From: a bacterium
GTDB lineage: Bacteria; Cyanobacteriota; Vampirovibrionia; Gastranaerophilales; UBA9971
Assembly (NCBI GenBank): GCA_037147175.1
Contig: JBAWVS010000032.1
Coordinates: forward strand, 1-27,532
Direction of reading: 5' to 3'
DNA length: 27,532 nucleotides
Under the pieces are notes generated by a model, which saw nothing but the letters and a program-made list of their open reading frames with translations, was not told the origin of the DNA and made no database searches. Made by a program: the position numbers and the translations under genes. Positions 14,847 through 27,532 of this stretch are shown here, piece by piece (position 1 is the first letter of the stretch; each line of letters starts with the position of its first letter).

Positions 14847-14990
14847 TTACCATGAAATATCTATGCGGCGAGGTAGTTTTTTCTCTGTGTTATCTACTCT
14901 AGAATAATCTATGCGTCCATCTCCGTCTCTATCCATCCATATGTTCTTACCTATCGTAACTTTCTTTGAATAACGACTATAGTTTATCTG
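14847..14990 (-). pseudogene. 3' end of a truncated gene with a DxDGDG calcium-binding motif
   Basis: A minus-strand frame ending at TAA (14847-14849) encodes about 46 protein-like residues. It includes KKVTIGKNIWMDRDGDGRI and DYSRVDNTEK, and ends ISW. The DRDGDGRIDYS stretch is a classic Ca-binding loop as in dockerin, EF-hand or thrombospondin type 3 repeats of surface proteins. The frame continues upstream into the mobile element's left-end repeat (14994-15010) and stops at 15015-15017, with no start. This looks like the C-terminal stub of a surface-protein gene cut by insertion of the element. The parent protein is not identified. Confidence 0.55.
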
Positions 14991-14993
14991 GCA

Positions 14994-15278
14994 GTTCCGG
15001 TCGAAATGCAAATTTTAAAATAAGCTGAAAACGTGCAACGTGTCTATAATAGAGGCACAATATTTTAGTCCCGGTCAATATGCAGGAAGTGCCACTTTTC
15101 TGCATAAATGGTACCGGTCAAAATGAAGATTTTATTTAAAAAATATGCCTCAATTGCAAACACCGAGCGGATATAATCCCGTTTGCAGGAATGTGGCACT
15201 TTTTTCTAAAGCCGGAAGAAGCCGGAAGAAGCATGGAAGGTTTTTCAAAATTTATCAAATAGTTCCGGCTAAAATGCA
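14994..15278 (+). repeat. Four 17-bp direct repeats, probable transposase-binding left end
   Basis: Copies: GTTCCGGTCGAAATGCA (14994-15010), GTCCCGGTCAATATGCA (15068-15084), GTACCGGTCAAAATGAA (15111-15127) and GTTCCGGCTAAAATGCA (15262-15278). All share GTNCCGG and AATG. Spacing is irregular (74, 43 and 151 bp), as in Mu or Tn7 ends. A second short motif occurs between them (GTGCCACTTTTCT at 15090, GTGGCACTTTTTTCT at 15193), and GCCGGAAGAA is tandemly duplicated at 15211-15230. They lie directly upstream of the first transposase gene. Confidence 0.7.
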
Positions 15279-15308
15279 GAACTTCCTGCTTTTGCTTTCC
15301 GGATTGAT

Positions 15309-15406: not shown

Positions 15407-17416
15407 ATGAATCCTGAAAGTATCTGGGTTGATCTAAAGACAGCAGCCGAAATAAAAGGAATAACCACAAGGGCTTTAAGATTAGCTCTCGGCAGGGGCA
15501 AATATACTTCTCGCGAATCTATGACCCAAGGCGGAAAGACTTCCGAGATACTTTTATCCTCTTTAGAAAATAAAGTTCAGGAAATATATAAGAATAAATA
15601 TTACAGCCGGATTATTGAAATCGAAGCGCAGTTAATGCCAATATCAAAACCTGAAATATCTGAGTTGAAATTTATTCCCGATACAGCAAAAACAATTGCC
15701 CTTGCCAGATTAGACCTTATTAACGAATGGAATACTTTAAGAATAAAGCATAAACCAAAACAAAAAGGCGACAGACTGTTTTTAGAACTATATAACTCGG
15801 GCGAATATTTAAAAACCATTTACGAGCTTCTGGGGAAAACCTCTAGAGGCTCTTTATTAAGATGGAATAAACTTTATACGGATTATGAAACGTGGGAAGT
15901 CCTTGCTCCGCAATATAAATACTCGGGATTTAACGATTATAAAACAATACTTACTGAAGAGCAGATAGGAATATTTTTAAAACTGCTCCTGCACCCCAAT
16001 CAATTCAATATCGGCAAGGCAATAAAATTAACAACTCATATATTGGAAAAACGAGGTTTTACAGATATTCCTCAAGCTATAACATTCCGCAGATACGCTC
16101 AATACTTTAAAAAACACAATTGCGATAAGTGGATACTAATGAGAGAGGGAGAGAAGGCGCTTCGCGATAAAATCGAGCCCTACCTGAAAAGAGATATTTC
16201 AACAATCAAAGCAGGCGAAATCCTTGTAGCCGACGGACACGTTTTAAACTTCCTTGTTTTAAATCCATTCACCGGAAAACCCTGTAGAGCGACATTAGTA
16301 GGATTCCTCGATTGGAAGTCGGGCTATCTCGCAGGGTATTACATTATGCTGGAAGAGAATATTCAGTGCATAGCTTCAGCTTTAAGAATGGCAATAATCA
16401 ATCTGGATATGATTCCGACCATAGTTTATCAAGATAACGGCAGAGCCTTTAAAGCAAAATATTTTACCGAGTCGGCAGATTTTACCGAAGCGGGATTTAA
16501 CGGCATTTACACAAATCTTGGCATAAAACCGGTATTCGCAAAACCCTATAATGCCAGAGCAAAGGTTATAGAAAGATTTTTTAAGGAATTTCAAGAAGAA
16601 TTTGAAAAACTTGTACCGAGCTACAGCGGAACTTCAATAGAAACAAAACCGGCGCATTTAAAAAGAAACGAGAAATTTCACAAGGAAATTTATGACAAAG
16701 TTAACAAAGGATACATACCAAAAATTGAAGATGTAATAAAACTTATAGACTGCTGGCTTGATTACAGACATTCTCAGCCCTGCCCTAATTTAAAAGGCAA
16801 AACAATCAAAGAAGCCTTTGATACCAGAGAAAAACAAAATGTAGATATATCAAAACTTGACGATTTGATGATGGCTTATGAAGTCAAAACAATTCATCGA
16901 AACGGCATAAGGTTTTTAAATACTGATTATTACAACGATGCACTTTACGGCTTAAGGGAAAGGGTAATGATTAGGTACAGCCTGTTTGACCTGACAAAAA
17001 TCAAGATTTATTCAACAAAAGGCGAATATTTATGCACCGCTAAAAGAGTAACGGGCACGCATCCGATGGCTTATCACCTTGGGACAGTCAAAGATATGGA
17101 GGATTTTAAACAAAAAATTCAAAAACAAAAAAGGCTTAAAAACCGCACGCTAAAAGCAGTTAAGAGATTCTTGCCAAAAGAAGATATTAAATTCCTTGAG
17201 ATACAAATGGATTTAGAAAGCAGACCGCAGGAAATTTCTGCAATAGAAATCAAGCAAGAACCAATAATCCTGCCTGATAAACTCAGACCGGTATTTATGA
17301 ATTCTTACGAGAAATATGAATATTTAATAAAAGAAGGCTGCACGACAAACGAAGAAAGGAAATGGCTGACTGATTACAAAACCGGCGAAGAATACCAATT
17401 AATATACGGAGATTAA
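15407..17416 (+). CDS. MuA-like DDE transposase (module 1)
   Basis: A 669-aa retroviral-integrase-type transposase. The N-terminal winged-helix domain (about 5-65, WVDLKTAAEIKGIT, ending ILLSSLENKVQEIY) resembles the MuA enhancer-binding domain. Further DNA-binding helices precede the catalytic core, whose triad is D276 (LVADGHVLN), D343 (YQDNGRAFK) and E389 (KVIERFF). A C-terminal beta-barrel and helical tail follow. It cuts and joins element ends as a multimer. ATG follows AGAGGGA at good spacing. It lies just right of four end-type repeats and 3 nt before the ATPase gene. It is homologous over its N-terminus and core to the second transposase but clearly diverged. No truncation seen. Confidence 0.9.
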   Translation: MNPESIWVDLKTAAEIKGITTRALRLALGRGKYTSRESMTQGGKTSEILLSSLENKVQEIYKNKYYSRIIEIEAQLMPISKPEISELKFIPDTAKTIALARLDLINEWNTLRIKHKPKQKGDRLFLELYNSGEYLKTIYELLGKTSRGSLLRWNKLYTDYETWEVLAPQYKYSGFNDYKTILTEEQIGIFLKLLLHPNQFNIGKAIKLTTHILEKRGFTDIPQAITFRRYAQYFKKHNCDKWILMREGEKALRDKIEPYLKRDISTIKAGEILVADGHVLNFLVLNPFTGKPCRATLVGFLDWKSGYLAGYYIMLEENIQCIASALRMAIINLDMIPTIVYQDNGRAFKAKYFTESADFTEAGFNGIYTNLGIKPVFAKPYNARAKVIERFFKEFQEEFEKLVPSYSGTSIETKPAHLKRNEKFHKEIYDKVNKGYIPKIEDVIKLIDCWLDYRHSQPCPNLKGKTIKEAFDTREKQNVDISKLDDLMMAYEVKTIHRNGIRFLNTDYYNDALYGLRERVMIRYSLFDLTKIKIYSTKGEYLCTAKRVTGTHPMAYHLGTVKDMEDFKQKIQKQKRLKNRTLKAVKRFLPKEDIKFLEIQMDLESRPQEISAIEIKQEPIILPDKLRPVFMNSYEKYEYLIKEGCTTNEERKWLTDYKTGEEYQLIYGD

Positions 17417-17419
17417 AAA

Positions 17420-18172
17420 ATGAAAAAAACTTTTGTAAGAACTCAAAATGTAAAAAACTTTATTTCGCTTATGAATTCTCTTCAGAATAAACCCGAAGGA
17501 GTGCCCAGAATGGCTCTTGTTTACGGAGAACCCGGACTCGGCAAGTCAAGAACGGCTCTGTGGTGGGCAGTAAAAAATGATGCAATATATTTAAGAAGCT
17601 CCAATCTTATGTCGGGCAGGTGGTTTCTGGAAGAACTTATTGAAGAATTAGGCGAAACTCCTTTTTATAAAACTTCAGACCTTTTAAAACAATGCGTAAA
17701 CCAGCTTCTGCAAAAGCCGCGAATTATACTGATTGATGAAATAGATTATCTGGCAGGCGATTCAAAGGCGATAGAAACAATAAGAGACATTCACGATAAG
17801 ACAAATGCGCCGATTGTCATGCTTGGGATGAATAAAGCCGACAGAAAAATTATGCGATACCGCCACGTTTATGACAGGTTAAGCGAAATACTTAAATTTC
17901 AATCTTTTGACAAAAATGAAACCGAAAATATTATAACGCAGCTAAGCGAAGTTTCTTTCACTCAATGCGCCATAGAGCTGATTTTTAATCAGGCAAACCG
18001 ACTAAGGCAAATTGTAAACCTTATTGATAAAGCTGAAAAAATAGCAATATCAAACCAGCTGACCCAAATAGACAGCAAAATTTTAAAATCGGGAATACAA
18101 GAAATCAGAGAACAGGAGAAAAAAGATGAAAAAGCAGTTATTAAAATTAATCAAAGGGTTAAACAAGTTTAA
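17420..18172 (+). CDS. MuB/TniB-like AAA+ transposition ATPase (module 1)
   Basis: A 250-aa AAA+ ATPase with Walker A GEPGLGKS (36-43) and Walker B IILIDEIDYL (D106, E107). Then RDIHDKTNAPIVMLGM, a sensor-like segment also found in the module-2 ATPase as RRIHDKTEVGVLLIGM. MuB/TnsC/TniB proteins bind target DNA, activate the transposase and enforce target immunity. Unlike the module-2 paralogue it lacks the N-terminal lambda-repressor-like domain. It starts 3 nt after the transposase stop, and its last 47 nt overlap the next gene in another frame. Confidence 0.88.
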   Translation: MKKTFVRTQNVKNFISLMNSLQNKPEGVPRMALVYGEPGLGKSRTALWWAVKNDAIYLRSSNLMSGRWFLEELIEELGETPFYKTSDLLKQCVNQLLQKPRIILIDEIDYLAGDSKAIETIRDIHDKTNAPIVMLGMNKADRKIMRYRHVYDRLSEILKFQSFDKNETENIITQLSEVSFTQCAIELIFNQANRLRQIVNLIDKAEKIAISNQLTQIDSKILKSGIQEIREQEKKDEKAVIKINQRVKQV

Positions 18173-18872
18173 AACGGATGATTTATGCCAGATGGCAGAG
18201 CTTGAAGAAAGCGAGATTCAGCCATATCTGAGCGAATTTACAGATGAAGGAATAATAATAAAAATCAGCGCCGACTCCTATACCATGCTTGAGAAAATTC
18301 CTCAAAGGCAAACAAAAAGACGTAAAAACGTTAAGGCAGAAAAGATTGAAAAGCTTAAAAAACTTCTTCAATTTCCGCAGGAAGAATTAGACAAATTTAA
18401 AAAAGTACCTGAAAATTTAAGAAAACCTGCAGAAAAATATCTGAAAATTCTTTATATGACTCAAGATATGACCCCTAAAAAAATCAGATGTTTTCTTGAA
18501 AATCAAAATAAAAACAACTCTGACCTGAAAATGGGTTACAGCACATATTCAAGAGTGAAACAAAGACTTAGTGAAGAAGGAATCATCGGGCTTATTCCAA
18601 AATACAGCGCTTATAATAAAGGGCAATCAATAATTAAAAAGCGGATTTACGAAAAGTTCAAAAGCCTTTATCTGCAGCCCCATGCTCCATCAAGATTAAG
18701 CTGCTATAACGAAGTTAAAGCTGAATTTGCGCATTATTACGAAGAATGGAATTTTCCCGGTTACCTTGCATTTAAAAGAAAACTCGAGACAGAATTTACG
18801 GAAGACGAAATAAAAATCTATAGAACTTCTTTGAATGATATCTCCATTGAAAGCGTTCTTTCAGCTTTTTAA
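18126..18872 (+). CDS. Transposase-related DNA-binding accessory protein (module 1)
   Basis: A 248-aa protein without a catalytic DDE core. Residues 1-65 look like a winged-helix domain (TDDLCQMAELEESEIQPYL). Residues about 100-240 align by eye with residues about 96-250 of the module-2 transposase: both have a YS...R start, FKSLYL.. APS..SC against FKNLYL.. APS..SC, and LAFKRKLE against LSFKRRIR. That region of MuA-type proteins is end-binding DNA-binding structure. It may be a third transposition factor (end binder, target selector or inhibitor). The ATG at 18126 has AGGAG (18114-18118) 7 nt upstream, inside the ATPase gene. It may be a broken transposase, but the tidy start, length and coupling argue for a working gene. 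Confidence 0.65.
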   Translation: MKKQLLKLIKGLNKFKTDDLCQMAELEESEIQPYLSEFTDEGIIIKISADSYTMLEKIPQRQTKRRKNVKAEKIEKLKKLLQFPQEELDKFKKVPENLRKPAEKYLKILYMTQDMTPKKIRCFLENQNKNNSDLKMGYSTYSRVKQRLSEEGIIGLIPKYSAYNKGQSIIKKRIYEKFKSLYLQPHAPSRLSCYNEVKAEFAHYYEEWNFPGYLAFKRKLETEFTEDEIKIYRTSLNDISIESVLSAF

Positions 18873-18894
18873 AAATAAAATTTTAAGCCGATTG

Positions 18895-19242
18895 CTAACT
18901 AAAGAAAATGCATTTGGGGTCTTTATTCACTTCTTCTACGATAGCATCAAGCGTACCGGGATTTACAGAACGCTTAATCTCTTTATAATAATCGTACCAT
19001 CTGTCTTTACTGTCTGCCCACCATAAAGACCAGCTGTTTTTAAGTTCATCGTATTTAAGCTTTGCAACAGGCATTTTTGACCACTTGTCATCATGTCTGA
19101 GCCTTTCTTCAAACATTGTGACATCATTGCCTCTTATTGAATACGAATATTTCAGCTGACACCTGATATGCTCAGGAATCTGATCGCAATATTCATCCAG
19201 CTTCTTTATTACTTGCGCTTTTAAAAATTCTGTTAATGCCAT
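18895..19242 (-). CDS. DUF3024 family protein
   Basis: A 115-aa protein matching the DUF3024 pattern from memory: conserved YSIRGNDVTMFEERL, a W near the middle, PVAKLKYDE, WSLWWADSKDRWYDY, and an acidic C-terminus ending DPKCIFFS. Function unknown in the family. It is the second gene after the repressor on the minus strand, 3 nt from its stop, with AGGAG at good spacing. It is therefore probably expressed in the quiescent state together with the repressor. Only 22 bp separate its stop from the stop of the convergent module-1 accessory gene. Confidence 0.7.
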   Translation of the reverse strand: MALTEFLKAQVIKKLDEYCDQIPEHIRCQLKYSYSIRGNDVTMFEERLRHDDKWSKMPVAKLKYDELKNSWSLWWADSKDRWYDYYKEIKRSVNPGTLDAIVEEVNKDPKCIFFS

Positions 19243-19245
19243 AAA

Positions 19246-19941
19246 TTACTCCTGCGAAAGTTTCTTGCCGTGCCATATAACTTTACCTATAACAGCAATG
19301 CCCGATTGTGTATGAAGGTCAACCGTAAATGTGCTGTATTCCGGATTATCGCTCTTAACCTGCAATTTATTGTCAGGCATAAGTTCAAGTCTTTTTACTA
19401 CTAAGGCATCGTCAAATCTTACGACAAAAATTGCATCTCTGATTGCAGTATTGGCAGTATCTATCATAATCAGGTCGCCGTCTTTTATTGTCGGCTCCAT
19501 TGATTCGCCTTTTACTTCAAACACTACAAGAGCATTTTTCGGAGCAAGAATGTTTTTATTAAACCATTCCTGTTCAAAAGGATAATGCCCTATGACTGTT
19601 TCATTATCTACAATACAACCTGATCCGGCAGCATTTTTAATATCAAAAATGGGGACATAGACAATATTGTCGCAATAAACATTTTTGCCTGAATTATCTT
19701 CAATAAACATTGATCCTTTGCCGGCAACAATATATTCAAGATTAGCTTCCAGATTTTCATACAGCAGCGTTAAATACTCGACTGATGCTTGCCTTTCGCC
19801 TCTTTCATAATTGCTTATTGTCTTAGGAGCGATGTTTATCATTTTGCTTAATTCTTCAATAGTAAGAGCTGACTGAGTTCTGATGCCTCTGAGTCTTTGT
19901 CCTATTTCTTTTAATACTATTGGATTTAGCTCTTTTCCCAT
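19246..19941 (-). CDS. LexA/CI-type repressor (HTH + S24 peptidase)
   Basis: A 231-aa repressor. The N-terminal Xre-type helix-turn-helix (about 13-68, LTIEELSKMINIAPKTISNYERG) is followed by a linker and a C-terminal S24 self-cleaving domain with catalytic S147 (GESMEP) and K183 (VVKRLE). The likely autocleavage site is A105-G106 (NAAGSG). Such repressors are cleaved when RecA is activated by DNA damage, derepressing prophage early genes. It is transcribed divergently from the ner-A-B operon. The intergenic region holds ATGGTAAT-type half-sites overlapping a strong early promoter. Classical Mu c is not an S24 protein, so this couples the element to SOS in lambdoid fashion. Confidence 0.92.
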   Translation of the reverse strand: MGKELNPIVLKEIGQRLRGIRTQSALTIEELSKMINIAPKTISNYERGERQASVEYLTLLYENLEANLEYIVAGKGSMFIEDNSGKNVYCDNIVYVPIFDIKNAAGSGCIVDNETVIGHYPFEQEWFNKNILAPKNALVVFEVKGESMEPTIKDGDLIMIDTANTAIRDAIFVVRFDDALVVKRLELMPDNKLQVKSDNPEYSTFTVDLHTQSGIAVIGKVIWHGKKLSQE

Positions 19942-19968
19942 AGTTGTATTTTACCTTCTTAATAAAAT

Positions 19969-20044
19969 ATTACCATATGGTCTAATTTATTGACAATGTT
20001 CTCAAATGGTAATAATATAATTTAATTCAAGAACGAATGGTAAT
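19969..20044. promoter_or_regulatory. Repressor operators and early promoter
   Basis: A near-consensus promoter, TTGACA (19990-19995), 17-nt spacer, TAATAT (20013-20018), faces the ner-transposase operon. Three copies of the half-site ATGGTAAT surround it: inverted in ATTACCATATGG (19969-19980), direct AATGGTAAT at 20005-20013 overlapping the spacer and -10, and direct AATGGTAAT at 20036-20044. This is the expected layout for repression by the divergent S24 repressor and/or the Ner-like protein. Confidence 0.7.
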
Positions 20045-20077
20045 GTTGATTAACTTTATATAGAGAATATACCACAA

Positions 20078-20266
20078 ATGAGCAAGAATTCCAGATTAAA
20101 ATGGTTCAAAGTTAAACTTTTGTGTCGAAACCTTAGCCTTTCTAGCGTAGCGGAAGAACTTAATATTACGGAAGATGAACTGATTTCTCTGGTTGAAGGC
20201 AAAACGAAAGACGATGCTTTTGCCAAATGGGTAAAGGATAACCTCGGAAAGCCTTATTGGTTATAA
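20078..20266 (+). CDS. Small Ner/Cro-like helix-turn-helix protein
   Basis: A 62-aa protein with a helix-turn-helix-like core (LSLSSVAEELNITEDELISLVEG) preceded by WFKVKLLCRN. Size and place match Ner of Mu or Cro of lambda: the first gene rightward of the early promoter, divergent from the repressor and upstream of the transposase. Such proteins turn down the early and repressor promoters. It has no strong Shine-Dalgarno site. Assignment is by structure and position, not by clear identity. Confidence 0.6.
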   Translation: MSKNSRLKWFKVKLLCRNLSLSSVAEELNITEDELISLVEGKTKDDAFAKWVKDNLGKPYWL

Positions 20267-20344
20267 CTAAAACGAGTTTCAGCCTGTAAATCGGCAAAGC
20301 CGCTTTTACGGCATACACTCCTAACAATAACTAAGGAATCACAA

Positions 20345-22381
20345 ATGAGCAGGAAACAAGAAATAAACAATATACCTGTATGGATTGATGAAAATCAAGC
20401 CTGCTCTTTACTTGGAGTAAAATTAGAAACTTTAAGGAAAAACTGTACATCCGGCAAATATATTTATGAAAAAAACAAGTCTTTAAAAGAAAAAGTTGAG
20501 TACAAAATACTTTTAAGTTCTCTGCCGCAGCGGCTTCAAAATAAGTACAATCTATTAAATTCTGTTAATGAAACTGCTTTTGACCTTGATGTTGACCTTA
20601 TGCTTTACAATAAAGCCCCGAATTGGGCTAAAAAACAGGCTGATAAACATGTTGTGGTTCTGACAAATTCAAGAGGTTTAAAAGGCAAAGAATTAAGACA
20701 ATTTGTTAAAGTATGGAACGCTAAAAATCCTGATTTTAAAACTTCCTATTCAGGCATTAACGATGCCCGATTAAGATATGAACAAGGCGGAGTTTCAGCT
20801 TTATTAGCGCAATACGGCAAAACTGCAGGCGTTTCAAAAATAGAAGACAAATATTTTGAATACTTTAAAAACCTTTATCTCGTTGAAGGAGCGCCCTCTG
20901 TTTATTCTTGCTGGCTTATAACTCTTGGCTATGCAATGAGAGAAGACGGACTCACGAAAGAATCGTTTCCCGGCGAAGCCTCAGTTCGCAACTCATTCCC
21001 GAAGCATTTAAGTTTTAAAAGACGCATAAGAAGAGAAATACCTGTTTCGTCAATATATCTTGCAAGATACGGCTATTCTAAATGGAACAGAAAATATGCA
21101 AACTATGTCGAAAGAGATTATTCCGCTATAAGATGCGGGTCAGTCTGGGTCGCGGATCATGCGCAATTAGATATAGCCTGCGTAAATATTGACGGCAAAG
21201 TCAGTTTCCCTTGGGTTACGGCTTGGAGATGCTTTAAATCGGGCAAATGGCTCGGCTGGGTTCTTCAGCCTGATAATCCCAACTCTGATTATATATTCCA
21301 GTCGTTCTATTATTCGGCTGAAGAATACGGCATCCCTGATGATATTATTATCGATAACGGAAAAGATTTCAGGGCTAAAGACTTTGCCGGCGGAAGACGG
21401 AGTATAAAAATACCGGTCGAACAAATTTCTACAACGGCGATGCTCGGAAAACTCGGAGTTATTCCTCATTTTGCTCTTCCGTATAATGCTCAGACAAAAC
21501 CGATAGAAAGAGATTTTCTTAAAGTCAAAACCCTTTTATCTAAACACGCTGTAGGTTACAGGGGCGGAAATGTTACGGAACGACCGGAAAAACTTAAAAA
21601 AGAAATTCAACAGGGCAAAATATTAAAATTTGAAGAACTGAAAGAAATTTTTGACGATTTTATCGTTAATGTTTTCAATAAAATGCCGTCTCAAGGCAAA
21701 AATCATAAAGGAAAATCTCCAGATGAATTGTTTGCAGAAGAGTTCACAGAAAAGCGAGTCGTATCAAAAGATGCCTTAATTCTTTTCTGCAAAAGAACTT
21801 CAAGAGAATTATCCGTCACTCAAAACGGCGTCAGAGATTCAGAACTTCAAATAACCTACTGGTCTGACTGGATGCTGGGCGTTAAAAGCGAAAAAGTCTA
21901 TTTAAGACGCGATATTAAAAATTATGCAGAAGCCTGGATATTCAGATCATCCGATGATGAACTTTTAGGAACTGCATCTGTAAAAGAACTTGCTCCGGCT
22001 CTTGCTAAAGAAGAAATTTCCAAAGAGCAATTTAAAGAAATTATTGCAGATAAAAAACGCGGCAGAAAGATTGAAAAAGCTTACTCTCAAATAGAAGAGG
22101 TCGAGCTTAACGAAAAAATGCTGAATTATAAGGCGGTTTTAGGCAATAAAAATTATCCTTTAAATCCTAAAATCAGCAAAATGGCAAATACGTCAATGGA
22201 TAAAGCTGTAAGAAAACAAAAAGCCGCGGAGAAAATTGGCACTCACGATTTATCGGCATTTATTGATGAACCTGCAGCCAAAGAAAAGATTTATCTCTTC
22301 GAAAGCGACAGAGAGATTGATGAAGCTGAAAAAGAATATTTTAAAAATAAAAAATTAATAGGAGCAGGGTATGGATCTTAG
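20345..22381 (+). CDS. MuA-like DDE transposase (module 2)
   Basis: A 678-aa transposase. The N-terminal winged-helix (about 10-70, VWIDENQACSLLGVKLETLR, then ILLSSLPQRLQNKYN) is followed by end-binding helical domains (about 95-250) and the DDE core with D271 (VADHAQLD), D337 (IIDNGKDF) and E388 (KPIERDF). A Mu-type C-terminal barrel (about 490-560) and a tail that probably contacts the ATPase complete it. AAGGA precedes the ATG. The 3' end overlaps the MuB-like gene by 11 nt. Its order after ner and before a MuB-like gene, gemA and mor is that of the Mu early region. Confidence 0.92.
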   Translation: MSRKQEINNIPVWIDENQACSLLGVKLETLRKNCTSGKYIYEKNKSLKEKVEYKILLSSLPQRLQNKYNLLNSVNETAFDLDVDLMLYNKAPNWAKKQADKHVVVLTNSRGLKGKELRQFVKVWNAKNPDFKTSYSGINDARLRYEQGGVSALLAQYGKTAGVSKIEDKYFEYFKNLYLVEGAPSVYSCWLITLGYAMREDGLTKESFPGEASVRNSFPKHLSFKRRIRREIPVSSIYLARYGYSKWNRKYANYVERDYSAIRCGSVWVADHAQLDIACVNIDGKVSFPWVTAWRCFKSGKWLGWVLQPDNPNSDYIFQSFYYSAEEYGIPDDIIIDNGKDFRAKDFAGGRRSIKIPVEQISTTAMLGKLGVIPHFALPYNAQTKPIERDFLKVKTLLSKHAVGYRGGNVTERPEKLKKEIQQGKILKFEELKEIFDDFIVNVFNKMPSQGKNHKGKSPDELFAEEFTEKRVVSKDALILFCKRTSRELSVTQNGVRDSELQITYWSDWMLGVKSEKVYLRRDIKNYAEAWIFRSSDDELLGTASVKELAPALAKEEISKEQFKEIIADKKRGRKIEKAYSQIEEVELNEKMLNYKAVLGNKNYPLNPKISKMANTSMDKAVRKQKAAEKIGTHDLSAFIDEPAAKEKIYLFESDREIDEAEKEYFKNKKLIGAGYGS

Positions 22382-23246
22382 AGAAGAATTAAAAATAATA
22401 ATGAAAGAAAAGAAGTACAGCTTTAAAGCTGTGGCAAGAGCTACTGCCGTTTCTTCGACAACTCTTAATCTCTGGGTTAACGATAATTACATAGGCAAAT
22501 CAGATAAAATCGCTGATATTATCAGTAATTTTTTAAACAGAGAAAGAGAAAGAAGCTATAAAAGAAATATTCCCTGCGTTGAAACCTCTGTATTTAAACG
22601 AGTTTTTGAAATAGCAAGAATGTGCCATATCAATAACGAAATAGGCGTTTGCTACGGCGCTGCCGGCTTAGGTAAAACCGTTGCAGCCAAAGAATATACA
22701 AAGCATTATCTTGATTCGATTCTTATTGAATCAGACCCCGGCTTCAATACAAAAGCGCTGCTTATTGAATTTCACAAAAGACTGGGACTTTCAGGCAAAG
22801 GCAATATCTATAAAATGACGGATGAGGTTATTCAAAAAATACAGTACTCAAGCAGACTTATTATTATTGATGAAGCTGAAAATCTTCCTCATAAAGCGCT
22901 TGAACTTATAAGAAGAATTCACGATAAAACCGAAGTCGGCGTGCTTCTTATCGGGATGCCCGCTCTTGTTGAAAACTTAAGAGGCGAGAAGAATCAGTAT
23001 GAACAGCTTTATTCGAGAGTCGGCGTTTCTAAAAAGCTTGAAAAATTAAACATAAATGATATTAATGCAATTCTTGAAATTACTTCTCAGAATACAGAAC
23101 TGAGTGAAGTCTATCTTGAATATTCAAGAGGCAATACAAGGGTCTTATCAAAACTGATAATGAGAGCTTCAAGGGTGGCAACTGTCAATAAAATAGAATT
23201 GACGGGGCAAACAATTGCTGAAACATCTAAGATGCTTATTGTGTGA
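22371..23246 (+). CDS. MuB-like transposition ATPase (module 2)
   Basis: A 291-aa protein with the full MuB architecture. The N-terminal lambda-repressor-like DNA-binding domain (about 1-65, FKAVARATAVSSTTLNLWV) is followed by an AAA+ domain with Walker A GAAGLGKT (96-103) and Walker B LIIIDEAENL (D167, E168). A C-terminal helical domain completes it. MuB coats target DNA, delivers it to the MuA transpososome and mediates target immunity. GGAGCAGGG upstream supports the ATG at 22371, 11 nt before the transposase stop, so the two are coupled. Confidence 0.92.
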   Translation: MDLREELKIIMKEKKYSFKAVARATAVSSTTLNLWVNDNYIGKSDKIADIISNFLNRERERSYKRNIPCVETSVFKRVFEIARMCHINNEIGVCYGAAGLGKTVAAKEYTKHYLDSILIESDPGFNTKALLIEFHKRLGLSGKGNIYKMTDEVIQKIQYSSRLIIIDEAENLPHKALELIRRIHDKTEVGVLLIGMPALVENLRGEKNQYEQLYSRVGVSKKLEKLNINDINAILEITSQNTELSEVYLEYSRGNTRVLSKLIMRASRVATVNKIELTGQTIAETSKMLIV

Positions 23247-23254
23247 GGAAAAAG

Positions 23255-23380
23255 ATGAATAAACTTGAAAAAATGTTCTGTACCACATTAATAATCCTCG
23301 CAATTTTCACTGCCGGCATTCAATTCGGAATTCACCACGGCAGAGCCTTGGAACGAGAGGAGCTGTTCGATGGTGACTGA
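23255..23380 (+). CDS. 41-residue single-pass membrane peptide
   Basis: The peptide starts MNKLEKMFCTT, has a hydrophobic helix (about 11-26, LIILAIFTAGIQFGI) and a charged tail (HHGRALEREELFDGD). GAGG lies 7 nt before the ATG. It begins 8 nt after the MuB-like stop and overlaps gemA by 11 nt, with gemA's own AGGAG inside it. The tight packing between two coupled genes and the clear membrane segment argue it is translated. Function unknown; some prophage early regions carry small membrane proteins for exclusion or host-takeover roles. Confidence 0.6.
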   Translation: MNKLEKMFCTTLIILAIFTAGIQFGIHHGRALEREELFDGD

Positions 23381-23837
23381 TTCTCAAATTAAAAAAATTC
23401 ATACTCTTAAAAATGTTCTTAATCTTGATGATGAACTTTACAAAGAAATTTTGGCTAATTACGGAACTGAAACCTGTAAAGCTCTTTCGCCTCATCTTGC
23501 AGGCGAATTAATCGATAAGCTTGAAGAAATGGCGAAAGAGTCAGGAAGATGGATAATAAAAAAACAAAAATTTGAGAATTTGTCAAACAGATTAGATATG
23601 GCAACTCCTAAGCAATTAAGGATGATTGAATCTATGTGGAATCTGGTAATGACTGCTTATGCAGAAGAAAAGGAGATTAAATATGTAGATAAGAGAGAAT
23701 TTATTACAAAATCGCTCAGAAAATTTCTGTTAAACAAATTCTCAGTGAGCGATCTTAGGTTTCTTGACAGTAAAACAGCTCGCAAAGTTATTAATACAGT
23801 CAAAGAAATTAAAAAACAATATTTAAACGTTATTTAA
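23370..23837 (+). CDS. GemA-like (Mu gp16, DUF1018) protein
   Basis: A 155-aa protein matching the GemA/DUF1018 plan. The N-terminal part reads SQIKKIHTLKNVLNLDDELYKEIL with an L-rich helix LSPHLAGELIDKLEEM. The second half begins with ATPKQLRMIESMWNLV and ends with FLLNKFSVSDLRFLDSKTARKVINTVKEI. In Mu, GemA modulates host gene expression and DNA topology; its biochemical role is poorly defined. AGGAG at 23358-23362 supports ATG 23370. It is part of the early operon between the membrane peptide and the small helical protein. Confidence 0.8.
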   Translation: MVTDSQIKKIHTLKNVLNLDDELYKEILANYGTETCKALSPHLAGELIDKLEEMAKESGRWIIKKQKFENLSNRLDMATPKQLRMIESMWNLVMTAYAEEKEIKYVDKREFITKSLRKFLLNKFSVSDLRFLDSKTARKVINTVKEIKKQYLNVI

Positions 23838-23871
23838 AAGCAGTTTGAAACAAATTAAAGGAGAAGTAAAA

Positions 23872-24111
23872 ATGGAAACCTGCGAAATAATTGTAGGAAT
23901 TATCAGAGCTCAAATCAGCAATATTAATGAAAAATTGATCCAATCAAAGATTGAATTTGCCGATTGCAATCTTAGCGACAACGAATGGCATAACAAAAAC
24001 GAGAGGAAAATTGACTGCAAGATGTATCAGGCGCAAATAGAAATTCTTGAAAATATGGAAGGCATTATTACAGAAATATTGACCCAAGAACCGTCGGCTG
24101 TTGCCGCATAA
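23872..24111 (+). CDS. Small helical protein of unknown function
   Basis: A 79-aa mainly helical protein (METCEIIVGIIRAQISNIN..., ending EPSAVAA) with a DNEWHNKNERKIDCKMY segment. The start at 23872 is chosen over an upstream TTG (23845) because AAAGGAG at 23857-23863 lies 8 nt before it. It sits between gemA and mor in the early operon and is followed by two strong RNA hairpins. No family recognised. Confidence 0.65.
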   Translation: METCEIIVGIIRAQISNINEKLIQSKIEFADCNLSDNEWHNKNERKIDCKMYQAQIEILENMEGIITEILTQEPSAVAA

Positions 24112-24118
24112 AGTCGAA

Positions 24119-24177
24119 ACCAAGAAGCCGCCTGCTCAGGCTTCTTGGTCTCAGGGTAATGCCCTGACTGATGAGAC
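24119..24177 (+). promoter_or_regulatory. Paired RNA hairpins between the early genes and mor
   Basis: Hairpin 1: ACCAAGAAGCC (24119-24129) with GGCTTCTTGGT (24139-24149), 11 perfect pairs and a 9-nt loop, not followed by a T-run. Hairpin 2: TCAGGG (24151-24156) with CCCTGA (24162-24167). A longer alternative, GTCTC (24148-24152) with GAGAC (24173-24177), overlaps the base of hairpin 1. The mor Shine-Dalgarno site (GAGG, 24182) lies just downstream, so switching between structures could affect mor expression. Confidence 0.6.
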
Positions 24178-24189
24178 TAAAGAGGATTT

Positions 24190-24471
24190 ATGAAAGAAAA
24201 ACCCTGGCTTGATGAAATAAAAGAAGATGAAATGCCAAATGAAGAGCTTAAAACAGTAGCTTCTCTTTGCGGCGTTAAAACTGCTATAGACTTGATGAAA
24301 AATCTTCCCGGAACCATGATATTTATTCCCAATAAAGCTTTAATAAAATTAAGAAATAAATATATTTGTAAAAAATATGACGGAACTAAAAAATCACTGT
24401 TAATACTTTGCAAAGAACTTTCTCTGGCTGAAAGACAGCTGTATCAAATTATTAAAAATAATGAAAAATAA
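24190..24471 (+). CDS. Mor-family transcription activator
   Basis: A 93-aa protein with the Mor/C pattern of Mu. It has a helical dimerisation part (ELKTVASLCGVKTAIDLMKNL), then GTMIFIPNKALIKLRNKYI (the beta-strand linker and start of the HTH domain), and a C-terminal helix-turn-helix (LLILCKELSLAERQLYQIIKN). In Mu, Mor activates the middle promoter that leads to late genes. GAGG precedes the ATG. It is the last gene of the module and is followed by a terminator; no late genes are present for it to switch on in this window. Confidence 0.85.
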   Translation: MKEKPWLDEIKEDEMPNEELKTVASLCGVKTAIDLMKNLPGTMIFIPNKALIKLRNKYICKKYDGTKKSLLILCKELSLAERQLYQIIKNNEK

Positions 24472-26679: not shown

Positions 26680-27015
26680 TTAAAACAGGATTTTTTCGAT
26701 ATTGGTTTTGAGTTTTTGTATGTCTTCTTTAAAAATGCCTTCAGCATTTGCCGGTTTGTTTTTGTAATCATTTCTATAGGCAAGCCCCTCGGGAGTTTGC
26801 ATTAAGCTGAAAGGTACTGAGTAAATTATTTTCCATTCATCATCTTTTAGAACGGAAGCCTTTGCGTAACACTGGCTATGATAAGAATCTGACTTTATTT
26901 CAAGTTTTAATTTTTTATTGCTCAGCTGATAAATTTCTCTGTAGCTGATTGACTGACTGCTTGATTGATAGCAGATTTTTTCTATTGTTTCCTCTTGCAG
27001 TTTAGTTTTAGCCAT
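26680..27015 (-). CDS. Hypothetical protein, 111 aa
   Basis: A soluble protein with a lysine-rich N-terminus (MAKTKLQEETIEK), a central beta-rich segment (KLKLEIKSDSYHSQCYAKASV, DEWKIIYSVPFSLM) and a helical C-terminus (EDIQKLKTNIEKILF). No family recognised. AAGGAAAA lies 8 nt before the ATG. It follows the 86-aa gene by 13 nt on the same strand and is probably in one operon with it. Phage- or plasmid-type accessory gene is possible but unproven. Confidence 0.6.
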   Translation of the reverse strand: MAKTKLQEETIEKICYQSSSQSISYREIYQLSNKKLKLEIKSDSYHSQCYAKASVLKDDEWKIIYSVPFSLMQTPEGLAYRNDYKNKPANAEGIFKEDIQKLKTNIEKILF

Positions 27016-27028
27016 TATTTTTCCTTTC

Positions 27029-27289
27029 TTAGTCGATTAAAAAACATTCCGGGATATTTAAAGCTTTAAAATCTTGCTTGGAGATTTCGTTATAAAGCCT
27101 TGCTGTTTTTATATCTTCAATAGTTTTTAAGCTATCAAGGCTTGTTGCGTAGACTCTGCCGTCTTGGTCGATTACTTTAGCTCCCATCGCTTCCGGTGCG
27201 TCAACATAGCCGAGGTTGTAAGTCTTTATTAAAACTCCGATAGTTTTTCTTTTATAATCGTAAACCTTTGTTCCGAATACTATGTCCAT
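27029..27289 (-). CDS. Hypothetical protein, 86 aa
   Basis: A small protein opening with a beta-strand pattern (MDIVFGTKVYDYKRKTIGVLIKTYNLG) followed by AKVIDQDGRVYATSLDSLKTI, which looks like an SH3- or KOW-like small barrel, and a short helical tail. No family recognised. AAAGGAG 8 nt upstream of the ATG gives a firm start. It is the first gene of a two-gene minus-strand operon. Confidence 0.6.
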   Translation of the reverse strand: MDIVFGTKVYDYKRKTIGVLIKTYNLGYVDAPEAMGAKVIDQDGRVYATSLDSLKTIEDIKTARLYNEISKQDFKALNIPECFLID

Positions 27290-27475: not shown

Positions 27476-27477
27476 CA

Positions 27478-27532
27478 GGTATAGGTATAGGTATAGGTAT
27501 AGGTATAGGTATAGGTATAGGTATAGGTATAG
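27478..27532. repeat. GGTATA hexanucleotide tandem repeat
   Basis: Nine perfect copies of GGTATA fill 27478-27531 and continue to the last base, so the true length is unknown. It starts 2 nt after the -10 box of a consensus promoter. The window probably ends here because an assembly broke in the repeat. Confidence 0.95.

Follow-up and report, generated by a model that had tools for sequence, protein, structure and literature searches.

Bacteriophage Mu is the model virus in which one transposase serves both integration and replication, with insertion at nearly random sites. TnGBS-type conjugative elements likewise have one transposase, a Mu-like DDE enzyme, and their chosen target sites are promoters. 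In the CAST I-D system, TnsD homes to a position 30–33 nt downstream of tRNA genes, and TnsF of Tn6022, which selects targets, derives from a tyrosine recombinase that has lost its activity (PMC10293859). Can a transposing virus separate the choice of its lysogenic site from its lytic replication? This question becomes testable with the phages described here, which carry two MuA/MuB modules in tandem. No description of a phage with such an arrangement was found in the open-access papers searched.

The window, i.e., the whole stretch of DNA that was analysed, is a contig of 27,532 nucleotides (JBAWVS010000032.1) from a member of the Gastranaerophilales, an order of gut bacteria. The best explanation of its content is the left part of a Mu-like prophage carrying two transposition modules, with the following features:

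14990..15290, + strand: candidate left-end region, four (C/T)CCGG(T/C)..A(A/T)ATG sites upstream of tnpA1, exact terminus not fixed
15407..17416, + strand: tnpA1, MuA/TnsB-family DDE transposase of module 1, 669 aa (Mu-transpos_C 2e-15, PHROG 310)
17420..18172, + strand: tnpB1, TniB/TnsC/MuB-like AAA+ ATPase without the MuB N-terminal HTH (profile match)
18126..18872, + strand: tnpC1, winged helix and MuA I-beta/gamma-like DNA-binding domain (HTH_Tnp_Mu_2; 29% to MuA2 88–241)
18895..19242, − strand: DUF3024 protein (family match)
19246..19941, − strand: S24/CI-type repressor, in the same position as in module-2-only phages
20078..20266, + strand: small HTH protein in the Ner position, of a family conserved in tandem loci
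20345..22381, + strand: muA (A2), MuA-type DDE transposase of module 2, 678 aa
22371..23246, + strand: muB (B2), HTH and AAA+ MuB (Pfam/PHROG)
23370..23837, + strand: GemA (5.5e-12)
23845..24111, + strand: small early gene of the cassette, conserved in relatives
24190..24471, + strand: Mor-type late activator (family match)
26680..27289, − strand: two conserved phage genes that come after mor in relatives (L033, L027)

The left-end region is a candidate by analogy with left-end sites mapped in two relatives (G109C6 and G020a); the copies in the window start at 14996, 15070, 15113 and 15264. The third gene of module 1, tnpC1, overlaps tnpB1 and was absent from an earlier note on this DNA, and GemA and Mor extend module 2 beyond what that note had described. 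The early genes of module 2 follow the Mu-type order repressor, HTH, A, B, GemA, Mor. Of the virion side, the window holds just the two flanking phage genes at 26680..27289, which indicate that the prophage continues beyond the contig end. The contig ends in AGGTAT hexamer repeats (27477–27526), which probably mark an assembly break within the prophage. In the region that separates mor from the following phage genes (24640–26330), an adhesin-like remnant and a seemingly 5'-truncated FhaC/ShlB-like transporter gene were read by eye.

The transposases A1 and A2 are 23% identical (E=6e-21) and the ATPases B1 and B2 27% identical (E=6e-14). Judged from sequence, both pairs are clearly homologous and anciently diverged, in agreement with the statement of the earlier note that the modules do not stem from a recent duplication. 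Pfam and PHROG place the proteins of both modules in the MuA/TnsB and MuB/TnsC families. A1 also matches TnsB, and B1, in which the N-terminal HTH is missing, matches TniB (2.9e-9) and, weakly, TnsC, while B2 is related to MuB along most of the protein (8xvb, E=2e-22). The aligned catalytic columns are D276/D343/E389 in A1 and D271/D337/E388 in A2. Across 33 relatives, neither the A2 triad nor D343/E389 of A1 shows any change, and D276 of A1 is substituted in one row; the Walker motifs are kept in both ATPases. The gene coordinates, catalytic residues and motifs read in the earlier note were right, as the open reading frames and the aligned DDE columns agree with them, and the IHDKT segment it had seen in both ATPases reappeared in the repeat comparison and the ATPase alignment. 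Its 22-bp gap between 18872 and 18895 was also correct. The segment behind this gap consists of DUF3024 and S24; the other tandem phages are without these genes and have approximately 330 bp there instead.

The arrangement is widespread. The same cassette was found in 27 other fetched Gastranaerophilales loci: 27 of the 60 fetched MuA loci have the order A1/B1-C1-HTH-muA-muB, with C1 and the HTH gene separated by a few hundred bp, and gemA and mor are also present wherever the contig reaches far enough. Eleven further loci of the 60 are without muB. A viral contig of 57.9 kb (IMGVR_UViG_3300028571_002227) carries both modules in the same order with 54–60% protein identity. Within the order of the window, tnpA1 occurs in 223 of 383 genomes and MuA in 76 of 383. 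A scan of named genomes, whose main hosts are Candidatus Gastranaerophilales/Melainabacteria (some MAG titles name other taxa), found the tandem in 47 of 62 judgeable loci. Where the contigs of relatives are full, Mu-type terminase, portal and tail genes lie in the same element, and phages with module 1 only or module 2 only and the same structural genes exist. Thus, the search for the modules alone and paired that had been proposed for this locus returned both single kinds, yet the tandem prevails among the named loci. Among 50,697 phage records, 24 matched the MuA of the window and 150 matched tnpA1, each at one place only; the top-ranked annotated record for both was Bacillus phage BalMu-1, with 26% identity.

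All MuAs of tandem and muB-less elements form one clade (support 100/97) outside the MuAs of module-2-only phages, and the MuA of the window is the first branch of the tandem clade, on a long terminal branch. The distances of A1 and A2 correlate (r=0.73 after dereplication), and none of 5000 permutations reached this value. The median dN/dS values were 0.083 for A1, 0.068 for B1, 0.110 for A2, 0.048 for B2 and 0.127 for C1. Both modules are under purifying selection and have intact catalytic motifs. The central idea of the earlier note, one element with two transposition machineries, therefore finds support in the gene order that many phages share, the single MuA clade and the conserved catalysis. 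Among tandem loci, S24 stands between the modules in the window only, in the same position as in module-2-only phages, and the window therefore looks like an early stage. Module 1 would have joined to the left of S24, which would have been lost afterwards.

Two complete tandem prophages could be delimited, one of 52.4 kb with the target duplication AAAAT and one of 53.1 kb with TTGAG. Their left termini are TGTAATAAACTG and TGTATTTATTTG (TGTA...), and the right terminus TGTAAAGAGTCA is identical in both. The flanks of these two relatives revealed the termini and the 5-bp duplications that the earlier note had proposed to look for, both of them Mu-like (TG...CA termini); the right end of the window lies beyond the contig. 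A 25-bp site is present at the left end in three direct copies and one inverted copy and at the right end in two inverted copies. A scan of three phages with this site model (G109C6, G020a and G078) detected no copies of the end sites between the modules, which speaks against a right end of module 1 within the gap. The end sequences vary with A1 and with A2 to a similar extent (partial rank correlations 0.42 and 0.39), which fits shared ends. Both modules therefore probably use one set of ends; the different ends considered in the earlier note did not appear. Its other suggestion, that the modules may respond to different signals, is plausible. An inverted-repeat search found no ends for G018 (module-2-only) and G101 (module-1-only), and right ends were sought without success in the muB-less elements and in G361, G139 and G087. 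At the right ends of G109:C6 and G045:C11, a short tyrosine recombinase (approximately 180–210 aa) follows the virion genes. In the left flank of L127 (G078), another sequence resembling the tnpA1 promoter is situated immediately to the left of the phage end sites and suggests that two related prophages have recombined.

For 26 tandem or muB-less loci, the upstream sequence was long enough to be judged. In 23 of these, the element is located 3' of a tRNA or tmRNA gene that is at most 3 kb from tnpA1 and always on the same strand; no tRNA was detected at the other three. The near-random insertion typical of Mu was thus not observed in the tandem relatives. The two complete prophages are inserted 107 and 70 bp past the tRNA. 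As phage ends read directly in the sequence begin approximately 10–120 bp from the tRNA, the longer tRNA–tnpA1 distances can be attributed to cargo. The targets are varied and include tRNA Ser, Met, Gln, Ala, Asn, Phe, Arg, Asp and Gly as well as tmRNA. The loci collected here demonstrate both the tandem arrangement and its link with tRNA genes. The tRNA flank is absent at the window, where the closest tRNA on the upstream side is at a distance of 12 kb. A few module-2-only loci (L150, L160 and L161) are also near a tRNA, and the left end of L150 resembles that of the module-1 phages with a short tnpC.

In relatives, the third gene of module 1, tnpC, encodes an N-terminal winged helix and one of four remainders:

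Type a: winged helix and a domain without Pfam match; short, in tandem phages
Type b: winged helix and a tyrosine recombinase (phage-integrase) domain
Type c: winged helix and a MuA I-beta/gamma-like domain; the type of the window
Type d: winged helix, I-beta/gamma and tyrosine recombinase

In tnpC1 of the window, the region aligned with MuA2 corresponds to its end-binding I-beta/gamma part. No degenerate tyrosine recombinase domain was found in this protein, while the long tnpC forms of relatives have one; where such long forms were inspected, other residues mostly stand in place of the first catalytic Arg and the HxxR histidine. The structure model of the window protein (mean pLDDT 57.5) is good for the winged helix alone, and Foldseek found no match for it below E=0.001. 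The model of the short tnpC is good (pLDDT 89.5); its PDB matches lie mainly over the winged helix, and it has a full-length match to one uncharacterised viral protein. A same-strand tRNA within 3 kb was found for 30 of 38 loci with type a and 7 of 8 with type b, compared with 2 of 19 with the I-beta/gamma-containing types. For 37/46 against 2/19, the Fisher test gives p=2e-7, a value that overstates independence because the phages are related and their tnpC types follow the phage subclades by descent. The upstream genes of the I-beta/gamma group revealed no common target. In tnpC type, S24 and location, the phage of the window is an outlier. Considering this association, tnpC1 is a candidate target selector. 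In the class with a divergent HTH gene upstream, none of ten loci had an upstream tRNA. Five module-1 elements with this divergent HTH gene have a tRNA beyond C1: in L202, L206, L215 and L220 it is on the opposite strand, 3.7–7.4 kb past the start of tnpA1, and in L184 at a similar distance. The two read closely, L202 and L184, contain restriction- or ATPase-like cargo.

The correlation of location with tnpC type and the related observations point to a division of labour. We consider it somewhat probable that module 1 with tnpC picks the lysogenic site and module 2 drives Mu-style replication, both from the same ends. After infection, A1-B1-C1 would carry out integration: TnpC would bind the chosen target and, with the ATPase, steer the A1 transposase so that the phage is inserted at this place, which in most relatives is presumably the DNA immediately 3' of a tRNA or tmRNA gene. 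Module 2, with MuA, MuB, GemA, Mor and the HTH/repressor switch, would then replicate the phage by transposition during lytic growth, and both modules would act on the same terminal sites (5'-TGTA...). In short, A1 would integrate, A2 replicate and TnpC select. A targeted module 1 beside a replicative module 2 would explain the phages with a single machine, the retention of both in others and the location that follows tnpC. The fuller proposal, in which the selector is also exchangeable and a swap of its domains changes where the phage settles, has in our view about an even chance of being right; if it is true, natural selector swaps predict changes of target.

The main competitor of this division of labour is a hetero-transpososome, in which every step would require both A1 and A2 as two subunits of a single machine, with shared ends and no divided jobs. 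It would account well for ends that vary with both transposases, for the joint inheritance of A1 and A2 in the clade and for the satellite-like elements that keep A1, B1, C1 and A2 yet drop muB. However, the phages with one module of either kind have full structural gene sets, so each machine can probably work alone, and the full tandem phages keep a separate ATPase for each module; we regard the hetero-transpososome as unlikely. Even less probable is the reading of module 1 as a hitchhiking transposon or defence-island element of no use to the phage. Module-1-only elements with cargo such as restriction-modification and ATPase genes do exist, but a hitchhiker at this position would have to be reconciled with the absence of end-site repeats between the modules, with A1 adjoining the left end of the whole phage, with a single origin followed by long co-inheritance, and with a location of the whole phage that depends on the tnpC type.

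The vicinity of tRNA genes could in principle be independent of the DDE modules and result from a tyrosine recombinase or a neutral hotspot, since tRNA 3' ends are classic integrase sites and some phages have a short, intact-looking recombinase near the right end. This is very improbable given the TGTA termini, the 5-bp target duplications, which disfavour targeting by a tyrosine integrase, and the variable spacing from many different tRNAs and tmRNA. Further points against it are the one fixed orientation, the loci with I-beta/gamma-type tnpC, which are mostly away from tRNAs, and G020a and G139, both at tRNAs, in which the search for a short recombinase found none. A nested insertion or chance neighbours in this genome only can hardly be credited at all. 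Single-module elements of both kinds exist and S24 with DUF3024 lies between the modules in the window alone, but dozens of loci with the same gene order and spacing fall into a single clade, and this conserved order led us to reject the explanation. The unrelated flanks named in the earlier note as a sign of chance juxtaposition were not seen, as the flanks are conserved phage genes. The tandem pair is not a chance juxtaposition.

Related elements were seen alongside the tandem phages. Satellite-like A1-B1-C1-muA elements without muB, mostly at tRNAs, include L131 (G020), L133 (G045), L136 (G024), L121 (G065), L122, L129, L135, L138, L139 and L165; L213 is a satellite-like element without muA. 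The MuAs of the satellite-like elements form one clade. No terminase or virion-morphogenesis match was found in the longer satellite contigs read (G020b, G024, G045b and G065). A small protein with weak similarity to terminase small subunits is encoded in G020b, L140 and L213; G020b and L213 also contain helicase-like cargo. The muB-less elements may be satellites of the tandem phages. In IMGVR_UViG_3300028571_002339 (L332, L353), G018:C79 and G101:C3, the modules lie at opposite ends of a stretch of 47–58 kb and point inward; in G018 and G101 these may be two neighbouring elements. The first of these contigs starts with a tRNA-like 3' end beside the module-2 side. In L035 (1392–3722), the reading frame of tnpA1 continues into an HTH protein that resembles terminase small subunits, and Mu-type genes for terminase and portal come directly after it.

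The tandem element is a Mu-like phage, as judged by its virion genes, its early region and the 5-bp duplication. It has in common with Mu and Mu-like phages the repressor, the HTH protein in the Ner position, MuA, MuB, GemA and Mor, and it is further like them in the Mu-type terminase and virion genes, the 5-bp target duplication and the TG termini. In contrast to Mu, it carries two MuA/MuB-type modules, and insertion in the tandem relatives is tied to tRNA 3' flanks. With TnGBS-type elements these phages share a Mu-like DDE transposase and chosen sites. Like Tn7-like transposons, module 1 has TnsB-like and TnsC-like genes and a separate DNA-binding protein, and the relatives insert downstream of tRNA genes with a 5-bp duplication; unlike them, the element is a phage that uses many different tRNAs at variable distance, and none of the ten window proteins scanned matched TnsA or TniQ/TnsD. 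Module 1 seems to resemble a Tn7-type TnsBC with a selector in its mode of action. A location that follows the type of tnpC has its parallel in the Tn7 target selectors, among them TnsF and TnsD. The likeness to TnsF lies in the long tnpC forms, which carry a phage-integrase domain with changed catalytic residues; tnpC differs in having a winged helix, often a MuA-like domain and no zinc-finger match, and the short tnpC of tandem phages has another C-terminal domain without Pfam match. These phages appear to have split integration from replication and, on the integration side, to have gained a Tn7-style choice of a safe site; Mu phages, Tn7-like transposons and target selectors derived from integrases would thus come together in one system.
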